DNA of 64,000 bases, taken from Chytriomyces cf. hyalinus JEL632. Lineage: Eukaryota > Chytridiomycota > Chytridiomycetes > Chytridiales > Chytriomycetaceae. The first letter of the stretch is position 1, and each line of letters starts with the position of its first letter. The stretch lies in the NCBI GenBank assembly GCA_025435555.1, contig JAIWWG010000080.1, positions 94,124 through 158,123 on the forward strand. The letters are read 5' to 3'. This document shows, in pieces, positions 16,544 to 56,560 of this stretch. Under the pieces are notes generated by a model that worked only from the letters and a program-made list of their open reading frames with translations, was not told where the DNA came from and made no database searches. The position numbers and the translations under genes are program-made.

Positions 16544-16735
16544 GATTTATCGACGGATTTGTCAAAACAAATAAATAAAATAAACAAATGTCCATTACAG
16601 ATTTTTCACAATGAAAGAAGATATTTGACAGAATATACACGCTCATTTATTTAATAAATAAACACAAGAAAGAAGCGATTCAGTGTCAGCCGAGATTGCT
16701 CTCGTTTCCAGTGGGAGCCGCGAGGAGGCCCTGAA

Positions 16736-17134
16736 TCATATCCCACCACTCACCTCAAACATCCCGGTATCCAGTGCCCATTTCCATACTTGATCCAGCG
16801 GTGAAATTATTCGCAATGGGGATCGAACAAGTGGGGATGAACGCGAAATCTGAGGGATGAAAAACACAACACAACATGGTTCGAATCCAAGCAAGCGTCC
16901 GTCCAAGAGTAGCGACTTGACTTGAGGGATGCAAGACAGGAGACTGAGCCGGTGTGGCATGAGGGAAGCCACCAGCCAGCCAACTGAGTGGCTTCAATAT
17001 GTCCACACCTGCTCGTACTCCTGCCCATCTTTCCTGTACAACACCACGTCACGCTCCGATTGACGCGTCATCTGCACGGTCCCCCTCTCGGTGCTGGAAC
17101 CATTTTTTGCTCTTTTGGTGGGTGCAGTTCCCAT
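16736..17134 (-). CDS. Small hypothetical protein
   Basis: Two exons (17009-17134 and 16736-16849, complement) joined over a 159-nt GT...AG intron give a phase-consistent 79-aa protein. The N-terminus is basic and Ser/Thr-rich. A segment RKDGQEYEQ superficially recalls eIF1A, but the rest of that fold is absent. The second exon has a plausible helix ending in VWKWALDTGMFE. A further exon toward 16686 is possible. I do not recognise the family. It lies tail-side of ZMYND10's start and might be an artefact. Confidence 0.35.
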
Positions 17135-49784: not shown

Positions 49785-51205
49785 ATGAATGTGAGCAACG
49801 CACCAACTGAGCGCACGGTTCTCATCGGGGAAGATGCATTCCGGTACGTGTTCTACAGAGTATCAAGATGTTCGTTTGTTCCATCGCGCTCACTTGCGTC
49901 TGTTTCAGTGTGTACGATTGGACACCTGCAGTGGCTGCCTCGACCGATACTTCGAAATCCCCTGACACAGATGCATCTTCAAATCCCGTCTCGCAAACCA
50001 TGCCTACGAAGCCACCACCGCTCTTTGTTCTGCATCACGGCGCCGGATCCAGCGCGCTGTCGTTCCACTTGTGCGCAGTGCGTCTCGTAGATCTTTTAGC
50101 GCAAGATCAGGGTTTGAGTCGCGTGGGTCCAACTGTTGTTGGTCTCGATGCGCGTGGACATGGTGAGTCTTTAAAGTTTGTTACAGTCAAATGCATCATA
50201 TCGCCAATCCATTCAATAATTTGTTGTGATCCTGGCATGACAGGTGCAACTGTATGCAAGAATGAAGCGTTAGAGTTGTCGCAGTTATCGGATGACTTGA
50301 TTCGCGTTGTCGAGGCAGTTCGAAGAGATGCGGACCAGGAAATTGTGCTTGTAGGCCACTCGATGGGCGGCGCTGTGGTTGTGGACGCGTGTCAGAAGGG
50401 CGGCATCAAGAATATTGTCGGTGTTGGAGTGATTGATGTGGTGGAAGGTGAACAGGGTTTTGTTTCAAAACAATCTCTTGGATCGATCGCGAACTTTGAA
50501 CTTGAGAAAAACAGGTACTGCGATTGAATCTTTGGCACACATGAACAGCATTTTGAAAGCAAAGCCTTCGAAATTTCGATTTGTCGAAGACGCAATCAAG
50601 TGGACGTTAGTGCAATCTTATCATTTTCGCATTATTCGAATTGAACCAATGATTTTGCTTCCAGACTGCGAAGCCATCTAGTTCAAAGTAAGGAGTCTGC
50701 TCAGATTTCTGTCCCACCTTTGCTTGTCAAAAAGGGCGAACCTCCCATGTATCATTGGAGGACAGATCTGGCTGCATCAGAGCCTCATTGGAGAGGTGCG
50801 TTTTGTCGAAACCTCGTTTCAAGGATCGCAAACATTGAATTCGACCCATCCCAGGATGGTTTGATGGTCTTTCGGCGAAATTTTTGGGACTCAAATGTGG
50901 GAGACAGCTGCTTCTTGCAGGAACAGACCGGCTCGATAAAGAGTTGATGATTGGGCAAATGCAAGGTGCGGGCCAAAAATGCGTTTTGCTGTGAAACGCA
51001 CCACTAACCCGATATTTCTGCAGGCAAATTTCAAGTTGTTGTTTACCCAGAGTCGTGGCACTATGTGCAAGAGGACGTGCCTGGAAAGCTTGCTCTCTCA
51101 CTGTTGGAGTTTTGGACACGCAATCAGAAGCTTGTGATTATCAAAACATTCCCGATCCCCGCAAAGCCGGCTCCTTTGCTGGCATCAACGACATTGACTG
51201 TTTAA
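49785..51205 (+). CDS. PPME1: Protein phosphatase methylesterase 1 (PPME1/Ppe1)
   Basis: Alpha/beta hydrolase that demethylates the C-terminal Leu of PP2A. Seven exons (49785-49843, 49909-50162, 50244-50447, 50515-50605, 50665-50795, 50855-50965, 51024-51205), phase-checked, give 343 aa. The nucleophile elbow is VLVGHSMGGAVVV and the acid site lies in LLAGTDRLDKELMIGQMQG. The histidine lies in PESWHYVQEDVPGKLA. GVIDVVEGTAIESLAHMNSI and YHWRTDLAASEPHWRGWFDG match family blocks. The stop TAA is followed at once by AATAAA (51203-51210). Confidence 0.95.
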
Positions 51206-51500
51206 ATAAAACATGTGTTGACTCTTTTGTCACTTTGAACATGTGTTACTCTATATGCAGATGCAATATATGTATGTATATATATATATGATAAATAGGA
51301 TAAATAAGCTTGTGCGAGAATGAATCTGGACCACCCTGGACCACCCCCAACCAGTCGATAATAGTTATGTATTCAAAGTTTTGAACTGTCGCAGTCAACA
51401 AATTCTGTCGACAAAGTATTGATATGTTACTGAATTTTTCGTATCATGCAATCAAAAACTACGTATCATGCAATCATCTTGACCTTGTCGCCTCGATGGG
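51206..51500. repeat. A/T-rich stretch with (TA)n and a short direct repeat
   Basis: An alternating TA run lies at about 51274-51290, and CTGGACCACC is repeated directly near 51330-51350. No gene is seen. This begins a 2.6-kb stretch without housekeeping genes. Confidence 0.6.
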
Positions 51501-51699
51501 GTTGACCGAAGTTGGGATGACGTCTCAATCTTCAGTGCAAGGGTGTACATGAATGAGTTTCTCTGGCAATGCTGATGGCTGTCATACAATCCCGAATGGG
51601 CCGCACATGACAGACAGTATGCAATGCGGGCACAGGATCCACTCGAGCTTATATCCGACATGTTTCGATTTGCTCTCACGCACTGGCAGGAACAAGCCA

Positions 51700-52339
51700 T
51701 TCTATCCCACTCAGAGACTACGTTATATCTGAATACAACCGCTGCTTCCAAGACAAAGAAGATGTGATGATTGAGGAGGAAGGCTTCAACTGGGCCTTGC
51801 ATGTTACCTGGGACACGAATCTCATTCGCCAAATCATGAGGACGCTTCCAGAAAGCGAGAAGTGCCACATCGCATATCTTGACCTGGCCCTCGTTGGTAA
51901 TCAAATTGACAGTGTTCTTGCTAGTGATGGTATTCACGTGGCAGTCCTGTGCCTCAACAAGCACGCACAAAATGTCCCACTCTTTCGACTTCAAATCCAC
52001 CATGGGGAAACAAATGGCTTTGGCGCCGAACCCGACGATTCGTTTGTAATAGTGGGTTCAATGGTTGTTCAAAATCGTTTGGGGTACTTTCGAGACTTTT
52101 TCGAAGAGTTGGTCCGTGATTTTGGGATGGACGCACTGCAATTTCTCTTCAACTACCTTATCGAATTGCCGATTGAATGCGGGGCGTGGGGTGTGTGTAA
52201 TGAAATACCTGTGTGTACAGTGAAAATCCGATTTACCGACACACTAAGAACCAAGCCCTTCTTTATTCTTGATCTGGCACACCCTTCATATCAGATACGT
52301 GCTCAAAGCAGGAGCTTGCATTCACAGAGCCCATGAAAT
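51700..52339 (+). other. Open frame, possibly glycosyltransferase-like
   Basis: A frame ending at about 52336 contains EDVMIEEEGFNWALHVTWDT and DDSFVIVGSMVVQNRLGYF, then DFFEELVRDFGMDALQFLFN. The acidic EDV motif, a later G-S-M-x-V block and a (R)DFGMDALQFLF helix resemble the order in some inverting glycosyltransferases. An overlapping minus-strand frame (51452-52003) is equally long. I could not establish the start or splicing, and coding status is open. Confidence 0.25.
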
Positions 52340-52794
52340 ATTTCGACGTGGGGTTGAGGAAATACACATTTTTATCGGCCTGTTGGAATCCCGATGCTGT
52401 GAGGAATTCAGCAAGTGGCTGCTGTACCATCCTGGAAGGTAAAACTTTTGCAAAGTTCCTTGATCTGAGTAAAATAAAACATTTCGATCGATCATGACAC
52501 TTGATCACGTCAGCAGCGAGAAGAGCGCAACCAGAAACCTTTTCGGGAGACGCATTGGTTGGTAAGCACAGTTCAAGGCGCAAAAAAAAAATTTCGAAAC
52601 GAGCGCATACCCATCTGGAGAGACCCATCGTCATGAAACATTGCCGCAAGCATTTTGGACACTTGAGGAACCTCCGTGTCTGTCTGCAAATGAATTTGGT
52701 GGGGAACCTTTGCAACTGGGTGTCGCGCACGTGCGAGAGCAAATAAGACCAAAGCCCACGCCCCCAGGAAAGTAATCCATTTGATACGCGTCAT
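52263..52794 (-). CDS. Hypothetical secreted or membrane protein
   Basis: ATG 52794 opens MTRIKWITFLGAWALVLFAL, a strong signal peptide or anchor, then a polar stretch VPHQIHLQTDTEVPQVSKML and a GTATGC donor near 52609. Later frames include GCALLAADVIK, a short intron, and a tail TASGFQQADKNVYFLNPTSK ending at 52263. Exons are plausible but not fully joined. No family is recognised. Its 3' end overlaps the plus-strand open frame. Confidence 0.4.
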
Positions 52795-52857
52795 TCGTTC
52801 GTCAGCTTAGACAAATTGACTTGTTTCTTTGCTGAAAGCAAAAGAGTAATGAGCCTT

Positions 52858-53738
52858 TTACAGAGCGGAATTGGCGACTGGCGGGTGTGGCGCGCCGAGC
52901 AGTGCAGACCAACAACAGGGAACTTCCGCGATCTTTTTAACGAGGTTCTCAGTTTAGCACCGTATCACTTGCGCTACTCCCTAGACCCTAAACATGGGAG
53001 CCCGTTGCTAATCCATCCAACTGAGGAGTCTGAGATGGATAAAACGGTAGTCATCGTGGATTCAAGAACCTTTGCAGTGGATTGCGCAAGGAATGAATAC
53101 AGTAATCGATGCCCCGGAAAGCTGGGGATTTACGACCGGAACCGAGTTTGCCAATACTGAATGGGACCAAGGTACATTTTACGCTGAGGAGGCAGAGGAT
53201 GGGACGGGCATTGAAGGTGTTCCACTACAACGGTGAATGGATCGTGTCAACGAACCGACGGATTGATGCAAGTCGCGTTCGCTGGTACTCTCCTTGCTCA
53301 TTCTACGAGCAACTGTGCGACGTGCTTCAGACGGCAGAACCGTCTGAGGAGTTTGAAAAGTATCTCGATAAAGCGTGCACATACAGTTTTATTCTAAATC
53401 ACCCAGAGAATTATCATGTTGTGCTCCATCTGGTTCCCTCGCTTGTATTTGTGTCCAAACGCGACACGAAAACGGGTGTTGAAATGATGATTGGGTGGGT
53501 CGACTGGCCTTTAACAAGGTCGCGCCCGAGACGTTCGTGAATCAAAAACGTGGCATCCTCTTCTCTTTTTGGCCAACGCCAACACGTCCAATAAGGTACA
53601 AGGTTGATCATGCATGGTTTAGACACGCATACGAACTCCGCAAGAACAAACCAACGATGACTCGCTTGTTCCAATTCAGAAAAGAAGAAGAAGGAAATGC
53701 GCGCAGTATTTAAATCATTGGGATTTGACATGAGGTAA
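52858..53738 (+). pseudogene. Decayed RNA-ligase-like gene of the type seen in large DNA viruses
   Basis: An intronless stretch whose frames, read in sequence, resemble nucleotidyltransferase/RNA-ligase-like proteins I associate with nucleocytoplasmic large DNA viruses. Landmarks are MDKTVVIVDSRTF, an EEAEDGT element, KVFHYNGEWIVSTNRRIDA, LDKACTYSFILNHPENYHVV, and a C-terminal YELRKNKPTMTRLFQFRKEE. At least four frame changes (about 53085, 53205, 53490, 53693) lack splice signals, so the gene is not functional as sequenced. The lysine expected in a KxDG adenylation motif is not visible. The viral affinity is from memory of the family pattern and is not proven. Confidence 0.4.
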
Positions 53739-53809: not shown

Positions 53810-56560
53810 ATGCTCCGAGGACTCTACACGCGGCACTCCCGCAAGGTCCAGATGCTGGCAGCAGGCGTCGGCGGTATCGGCGTCTACTCCCTCGTCAAGA
53901 GCCAGTCCCACACCCACGCAGACGCCCTGTCCCATCTCGCTGCCGCCACATCCACAGACCCCGCACAGCTGTGGGTCCCGCCAAGTCGCGATGAAATGCT
54001 TCGGTAACTGTCTTTTTTATTGACCGCAAGAGCGTTTCTTCTTTTTCAACACGTGTGTTTCGACAAAAGTCGGCTCGGCTGCCCCGAGACGCCAACGCAG
54101 CCCGTGTCAAAGTCATGGTTCTCATCGAGTTCATCGGCAAGCAAGGCCGAACCCGCCGAGGCAGAACCTGAGTTTGATTTGCTTATCTGCGGCGGTGGCG
54201 CGACAGGAGTCGGCTGCGCACTGGACGCGGCAACACGTGGCCTGAAAGTGGCTCTGGTTGAACGCGACGATTTCTCTTCAGGTTTTGCAAAAAGGGTTTA
54301 CTTTCAACTGACTTGGCTGACACCTTGGGTTTGTCTTTCTTAAAAAAAAGGAACCTCATCCAGATCCACGAAACTTGTCCACGGCGGTGTGCGATACCTC
54401 GAAAAAGCTTTCAAAGAACTCGATATCGAGCAATACAAGCTCGTTGTCGAAGCTCTTCACGAGCGTTCCATTTTCCTCAAAATTGCTCCATACCTGAGTT
54501 ACCAGCTGCCCATCATGCTTCCCATTTACGCCTACTGGAAACTTCCATACTATTTTGTCGGTGCGAAAGCGTACGAATTTCTCGCTGGAGCCGAGGGGAT
54601 TTCGAAATGTTACTTTTTGGGGAAACGGAAGGCTTTGGAAGCTTTCCCAATGATGAAGAGTGATAGACTTGTTGGAGCTATGGTTTACTATGATGGTAAG
54701 AAATGATTGCTCTTATTTCTTGCAAGAACATTTGAATGCAATGAACTGAAATCATGATTTTACTTCAAAAAAAAAAAAAAAAGGCGCGCACAATGATTCG
54801 CGCATGAATGTTGCCATTGCACTTACCGCCGTTGCACATGGCGCCGTTGTTGCAAACCATGTGGAAGTTGTTGAACTGGTCAAAAAACCGCGATCGAAAT
54901 TCTTTGGGAAAGCTGGATTTGGAAAGGACGAAATTTGCGGTGCCGTTGTTCGAGACGTTCTGACTGGTAAAACTTGGACTGTGAAAGCAAAGGTGTGTAC
55001 CACAAGAAAAAGCTCAAGTTTTTTTATTTTTCGCAGCATCTCATAACGACTTTTTTTGTAGGGAGTCATCAATGCTACCGGACCCTTTTCTGATGGACTT
55101 CGAAAATTGGACACTGGATTGACTACTCAAGAAATTGTCGCACCGAGTGCTGGGGTTCATATCATTCTGCCAAACTACTTTAGTCCTCGTAACATGGGTT
55201 TGATTGACCCTGAAACGAGCGATGGACGCGTCATTTTCTTTTTGCCTTGGCAAGGAAACACAATCGCAGGAACCACTGGTGAGCGCGCAGCAGAAATTTC
55301 TGATTGTCTTTGCCACCAAACTAAAATGTCTTCAAAAATCAAAAAAAAAAAAACGCAAGACTCACCCACAACTGTAAGCGCCAACCCGATGCCAAGCGAA
55401 GAAGACATCACCTGGATTCTGGACGAAGTGAAAAACTACCTCGACCCCGGCATCAAAGTCCGCCGTGGCGATGTTCTCGCAGCATGGAGCGGAATCCGCC
55501 CTCTCGTGCGAGACCCTGCCGCCAAAAACACTGCCGCACTTGTTCGTAACCACATGATTAACGTTTCTGAAAGTGGTCTGTTGACGATTGCTGGAGGAAA
55601 ATGGACCACGTACCGAGCCATGGCGCAAGAAACGATTGACAAGGCGGTGGAAGTGTTTGATTTGGGGGAGAAGGCGGGTCCTTGTATCTCGGAACGTACG
55701 ATTCTTGTTGGAACTGCTGGATGGACTCCTAATATGTTTATCAAATTGATTCAAAACTTTGGAATTGAGACGGAAGTTGCGGAACATCTTGCGGATAGTT
55801 ATGGTGGACATGCATGGGCAGTTGCTAGTATGGCGCACATGACTGGTTTGAGATGGCCGATCCATGGGTTTGTAACCTTTTTTGTTCAAGTTTTACTAGT
55901 AGTTGTGATTCTGAGTTTTACCAATTTCACAGAAAGAAGCTGTCTCCCCAGTACCCATACATTGAAGCCGAAGTCCGGTATGCAGTCCGTCGCGAATACG
56001 CATGCACGGTTGTGGACGTGATTGCGCGCCGCACCCGTTTAGCAATGCTCAACGCACAAGCCGCCAAAGAAACGCTCCCCCGCGTAATTGAAATCATGGC
56101 CGAAGAATTGCACTGGACACCCCAACGCCAAGCACAAGAACACGCAGACGCGCTCCAATTCTTGTCGTGCATGGGTCTACATTACTTGGAAGGGTTAAAC
56201 GACAAGAGTCCCGAAGAACGAACATTTTACACGCGGAATCATTTTGTTCCTGAAGAACTTGTTGCGTATCAAAAAGAGTTTGCGCGGTGGGATAAACAAG
56301 GGAATGGGCGGATACGTGCAAAAGATTTGGGGAAAGCGTTGAAGGCGCTTGATGTGACTGATGCGGATGTGTCGGTGCAGCAAGATGCGTTGGCAATTGC
56401 TGAAAAGATGGAGCTTGGGAAGCAAGGGTTGTTGGAGTTTGGCGAGTTTTTGGAGGTGTTGAGTGAGATTAAGGAACGGAAGCAATTGAGCAGGTTCAAG
56501 ATGGAGGAAGGGGAGGCACGGACGATTGTTAGTACGCTCAAGTCTGGTGGTGGAGTTTGA
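53810..56560 (+). CDS. GUT2: FAD-dependent glycerol-3-phosphate dehydrogenase, mitochondrial
   Basis: Inner-membrane enzyme passing electrons from glycerol-3-phosphate to ubiquinone. Seven exons (53810-54003, 54070-54281, 54351-54695, 54784-54992, 55062-55278, 55360-55867, 55933-56560), phase-checked, give 770 aa. Basic N-terminal presequence; FAD motif [89 protein letters not shown]. The C-terminal ~100 residues contain an EF-hand-like pair ([20 protein letters not shown]), as in animal GPD2 and longer than yeast Gut2. Intron 3 ends in a 16-A run directly before its acceptor. Confidence 0.95.
54767..54782 (+). repeat. A16 tract at GUT2 3' splice site
   Basis: Sixteen A run directly into the acceptor G of intron 3 (54696-54783). 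An A-tract in place of a pyrimidine tract at this position is unusual. Confidence 0.9.

Follow-up and report, generated by a model that had tools for sequence, protein, structure and literature searches.

A decayed RNA-ligase-like gene of probable giant-virus origin in the genome of the chytrid fungus Chytriomyces

Structure of the RNA-ligase-like relic

The window analysed here is a 64-kb stretch of contig JAIWWG010000080.1 from Chytriomyces cf. hyalinus JEL632; Chytriomyces hyalinus is a member of Chytridiomycota. Coordinates are positions within this window, and frame labels are counted from base 51000. Comparison with relatives showed that 52849-53729 holds five pieces of one RNA-ligase-like protein, which keep their order and lie in frames 2, 3, 1, 3 and 1. 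The original prediction, made from the sequence of this region, had described an intronless RNA-ligase-like gene, possibly from a giant virus, with at least four frame changes; four were recovered, and the two blocks that it quoted, FHYNGEWIVSTNRRIDA and LDKACTYSFILNHPENYH, were both present in the open frame 53106-53540. The pieces were as follows.

52849..53079, + strand, N-terminal piece of the RNA-ligase-like relic, matched by 43/55 family proteins at E<=1e-3
53081..53206, + strand, piece of 42 residues with the motif I position (EEAEDGT, without the lysine), matched by 5/55 family proteins at E<=1e-3
53202..53510, + strand, piece with motifs Ia and III (STNRRIDA ... NHPEN), matched by 55/55 family proteins at E<=1e-3
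53498..53662, + strand, piece with the motif IV/V positions (QKRG ... YKVD), matched by 42/55 family proteins at E<=1e-3
53661..53729, + strand, final piece before the truncation, 23 residues, 91% identical to contig C84

The ligase-like region had several partial open frames and no long one. A short conserved block was missing near the first break, and the C-terminal part was cut off; the last 84 of the 166 residues of the second frame on C84, another contig of the same assembly, had no counterpart in the window relic. The frame changes and this truncation bore out the proposal that the gene is an endogenised relic.

The whole 64 kb was then cut into six-frame pieces of at least 30 residues and scanned with a family profile built from 18 relatives, which matched four open pieces of the relic at E = 3e-39, 2e-13, 3e-12 and 0.011. 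Nothing else in the 64 kb fell below E = 1 (the next match was at 1.5), and when the region was shuffled 20 times and reversed once, the best E was 2. For the middle piece there was also weak similarity to phage RNA ligases (phrog_562, E 0.13).

A ligase-like relic therefore stood at the reported place, but its limits had to be redrawn, with the left edge moved to about 51477 to take in more broken coding sequence and the right edge at about 53730.

51477..53730, + strand, entire segment taken to be inserted (relic), blastn in four blocks at 83-91% identity to contig C84
51478..52469, + strand, one or two genes with broken coding sequence, the pieces in frames 1, 2 and 3; its C84 counterparts are a 195-residue and a 209-residue frame

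No Pfam family passed the cut-off for the ligase-like pieces or for this other broken coding sequence. The predicted model of the latter had a predicted local distance difference test (pLDDT) score of 38, and its resemblance to ankyrin repeats is an impression only. At the left edge (51440-51477) a 15-base direct repeat was seen, with CGTATCATGCAATCA occurring twice; the joining event may have left it behind.

The segment was flanked by fungal genes on both sides.

49811..50524, + strand, exon of an alpha/beta hydrolase (PF12697 1.1e-12)
54344..56018, + strand, FAD-dependent oxidoreductase with a glycerophosphate-oxidase C-terminal domain (PF01266, PF16901), on the separate open stretches 54344-54703 and 55062-56018

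The relic is thus bracketed by a hydrolase gene and a glycerol-3-phosphate dehydrogenase-like gene, with viral-type DNA and host genes on one contig; its reported setting in a fungal genome was upheld. A comparison of codon and k-mer composition with the flanking genes had been suggested as a check; guanine-plus-cytosine content was 0.476 in the relic versus 0.465 and 0.488 in the flanks, which did not set the relic apart and was uninformative.

A second copy beside viral-type genes in the same assembly

A search of the same assembly found a second copy of the ligase-like gene on C84, with 80% protein identity over 99 residues. The two copies were colinear along a stretch of about 2.4 kb on C84, and about 14% of positions differed between them. 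The C84 copy was a single frame with one in-frame TAG, in agreement with the intronless structure first described. On C84 the ligase-like gene was adjoined by a 393-residue frame and then by a fragment of a family B DNA polymerase (PF00136, 4e-37), and it is via C84 that the window relic is tied to a hallmark gene.

Contig C42 (69,440 bases) carried a polymerase, spread over two overlapping frames, that was 90% identical to the C84 fragment over 320 residues. This polymerase was followed first by DNA related to the beginning of the 393-residue frame (78% over 362 bases) and next by an RVT_2 element. The same contig encoded a major capsid protein of nucleocytoplasmic large DNA viruses (NCLDV).

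C42:51175-52461, - strand, NCLDV major capsid protein, open 429-residue frame (PF04451 2e-18, PF16903 1e-22)
C42:41524-45906, - strand, RVT_2 retroelement by domain match, with a long frame that also has an RRM domain (residues 183-242)

The major capsid search was positive in 0 of 14 control genomes. The nearest database relative of the C42 capsid was the Chytriomyces hyalinus gene model HDU78_005243, 94% identical over 80%, and 12 further proteins were related at 41-48%. The minor capsid proteins P8 and P11 were also found on C42, so that the host assembly has major capsid, polymerase, P8 and P11 on C42 and a polymerase fragment on C84.

Fold and active site of the ligase-like family

With the C84 copy as query against 5.8 billion proteins, 20 proteins, one of them its own record, were found among 332 candidates; with the alignment of 18 relatives as query, 53 proteins were found among 7992 scored candidates, the 18 included. 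The family alignment comprised 51 of 55 proteins and omitted P0018 (a fungal gene model over a relic) and P0044, P0048 and P0052, which were shorter or partial. P0018 is Chytriomyces hyalinus HDU77_005172, a gene model in another Chytriomyces record; it takes in a further relic of the ligase-like gene, 79% identical across 30% of the query. Family members were found on contigs of up to 372 kb, among them those of P0032 (372 kb), P0049 (324 kb), P0040 (187 kb) and P0011 (152 kb).

When the family profile was compared with the PDB, T4 RNA ligase 1 was the only match. The predicted model of an intact relative likewise had the nucleotidyltransferase fold of T4 RNA ligase 1 (Rnl1), which upheld the RNA-ligase-like assignment, and its best named viral structure matches were the RNA ligase/ICP-46 proteins of a marseillevirus and an iridovirus. 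PF09511 was matched at E<=0.01 by 5/51 members, and 3 of the 6 members scanned with TIGR02308 matched, all far below the cut-off; none of the window pieces matched.

The active-site positions were occupied by other residues in nearly the whole aligned family. The motif I lysine (K99 of T4), located from the alignment of the family profile with T4 RNA ligase 1, was present in 1/51 members (P0055) and absent in 50/51; P0053 and P0054 had a lysine one place before this position, and both the window piece and C84 had Ala. The motif III Glu was retained in 1/51 and replaced by Ile or Val in 50/51, the motif IV Glu was retained in 1/51 with Arg in 48/51, and the second motif V lysine was replaced in nearly all aligned members. 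Judged by this alignment, the family apparently lacks the ligase active site.

Codon-position differences between the copies

The differences between the window and C84 copies were counted by codon position 1/2/3. In the ligase frame they were 21/16/61 (295, 295 and 294 sites; p 8e-9) and in the 209-residue frame 9/15/35 (p 8e-5). The stretch from the 209-residue frame to the start of the ligase homology gave 11/18/13 (p 0.40) and was treated as non-coding; a database gene model (P0001) extends the N-terminus into part of this stretch, a reading that the codon counts do not support. Between the C84 and C42 polymerases the differences were 7/11/67 over both pieces (p 6e-18). The third-position excess indicated that most of the divergence in the ligase, 209-residue and polymerase frames arose while the genes were still working.

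Origin of the segment

We consider it very probable that giant-virus DNA was inserted in Chytriomyces and has since decayed, with a gene of the T4 RNA ligase 1 fold as its main remnant. In such a history Nucleocytoviricota DNA of at least 2.25 kb would have entered between the hydrolase and glycerol-3-phosphate dehydrogenase-like genes and would have broken down after insertion, the donor was presumably a virus infecting a Chytriomyces fungus, and the window copy would have no present function. The giant-virus origin was put forward in the original prediction as an inference, and we still infer it, now with good support from the polymerase fragment on C84, its 90% partner on the contig with the NCLDV capsid, and the RNA ligases of giant viruses, which gave the best named matches among viral structures. 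For the family's viral home the evidence is thus synteny on C84 together with structure neighbours.

Sequencing errors in an otherwise intact gene are a very improbable source of the frame changes: the window gene was also truncated at its C-terminus and lacked the short conserved block, the neighbouring coding sequence was broken too, and the copy differed from C84 at about 14% of positions. A pseudogene of the host tRNA ligase (Trl1), with no viral link, would have the same fold, as the fungal tRNA ligase does, and a host PF09511 gene, which we take to be the tRNA ligase, is present at C189:139052-139955. However, the family profile with all filters off gave no match at E<=10 to the C189 locus, and PF09511 in the assembly matched C189 alone (3 matches) and neither the window nor C84, so that this source was rejected and is left with practically no probability.

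A single insertion followed by segmental duplication within the fungal genome fits the colinearity of the two copies, but decay after duplication should be even over codon positions, and the ligase frame had a strong third-position excess that the adjoining upstream stretch lacked; we therefore regard duplication as unlikely. A captured gene that was domesticated in the fungus for a time, duplicated and then lost is less probable still: host selection would likewise yield a third-position excess, and the C84 copy has a single stop in its frame and is annotated as a gene, but such an excess was also found between C84 and C42 in the viral-type polymerase two frames away, and the lack of introns in the ligase-like gene counts against domestication. 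Separate insertions of related viral strains, which may have given rise to the window and C84 copies, are the best account of the third-position excess.

Several observations weigh against insertion of giant-virus DNA, or against separate insertions. Pfam found no hallmark family on the window pieces themselves. The genome had no match for the A32 ATPase, though 2/14 controls were positive, and none for VLTF3, but the same search was positive in no control either. Retroelements inside C42 and C84 suggest that these contigs may be part of chromosomes; the window relic does lie among host genes. In the 195-residue frame the differences between the window and C84 were 11/10/16 (p 0.43), without a codon-position excess, which helps neither duplication nor separate insertions. 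A tree had been proposed as a further check; in the tree of 51 proteins the C84 copy grouped with P0033, P0047 and P0049 at 91/81, but with long branches and a midpoint root it was not firmly placed, and the tree was not used as evidence. Five scans of a viral contig collection with members or alignments of the ligase-like family also found no relative. These empty scans say little, because two scans of the same collection, with the capsid alignment and with the polymerase, found no relative either, and we take the lack of a viral record for the family to be a limit of the collection or of the method.

Sources in prokaryotes and phages were also tried and rejected. A scan of genome contigs gave 76 pattern stretches with 0 relatives, and a tblastn search with the middle piece as query found matches in 3 of 50,697 phage records, the best at E 1.

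As for the intact protein, it may act as a sensor, shield or partner protein that binds RNA ends or a nucleotide but does not ligate; the chances seem perhaps evenly balanced. A broader proposal we rate slightly below an even chance: giant viruses would have inserted repeatedly in Chytriomyces chromosomes and would carry a widespread family of pseudo-ligases whose ligase active site has given way to a new conserved set (Arg in motif IV, Asp in motif V), with the protein binding RNA ends or nucleotides to some other end.

Comparison with known systems

Endogenous giant-virus DNA in fungi is a known kind of element. According to parts of PMC5294986, NCLDV genes occur in Gonapodya prolifera, Rhizophagus irregularis and Allomyces macrogynus, and in G. 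prolifera and A. macrogynus they are grouped in small islands surrounded by genes of the host. Sections of PMC10640383 describe a giant endogenous viral region of 1.5 Mb in R. irregularis and state that double-stranded DNA viruses of fungi are mostly known via genome traces. The Chytriomyces relic resembles these elements in having NCLDV genes within a fungal genome, but it differs from the 1.5-Mb region in being a fragment of about 2.25 kb, and the Chytriomyces assembly has a 429-residue capsid frame, unlike R. irregularis as treated in the section of PMC10640383 on the lack of major capsid homologues. The term 'RNA ligase' had 0 occurrences in the main texts of PMC10640383 and PMC5294986. 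Two giant-virus genomes from crustal fluids (described in part of PMC9894930) contain genes of fungal origin, according to a passage of PMC10640383.

In Amoebidium appalachense, repeated giant-virus insertions with most genes lacking introns are reported in parts of PMC11244446. Chytriomyces would be similar in having several giant-virus insertions in one host with mostly intronless genes, but it belongs to another host group. The ligase-like family shares its fold and motif order with T4 RNA ligase 1, giant-virus RNA ligases and iridovirus ICP-46 (in a passage of PMC2689277, STIV 097R appears under ICP-46 as well as under T4 RNA ligase pfam09511), and it departs from T4 RNA ligase 1 at the motif I, III, IV and second motif V positions given above.

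Our literature search found no account of Chytriomyces or JEL632 with giant viruses, in a coverage that left outside Gong and co-workers 2020 (cited in PMC10640383), and no account of a catalytically inactive RNA ligase in giant viruses. The kind of element is already known; no published description came to light for the host, the capsid-bearing contig or a ligase family without the active site. With its capsid and polymerase genes and its separate relics, the assembly points to a candidate host among the chytrids in which a live fungal giant virus might be sought, and a conserved ligase-fold protein that seems, by alignment, to lack the active site would be a clear test case for a fold without catalysis.

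Other features of the window and contigs

An Rfam scan of 44-60 kb of the window gave no match. At 16668-16738 the window had a short 75% nucleotide match to C84 (L004:3112-3192). The - strand of C84 (L005:3-2963) carried a 987-residue frame with many WD40 repeats (PF00400, 9 stretches). C42 additionally encoded a Fic domain, a RING finger, a kinase-like protein and a weak otubain match, gene types that are common in giant viruses.
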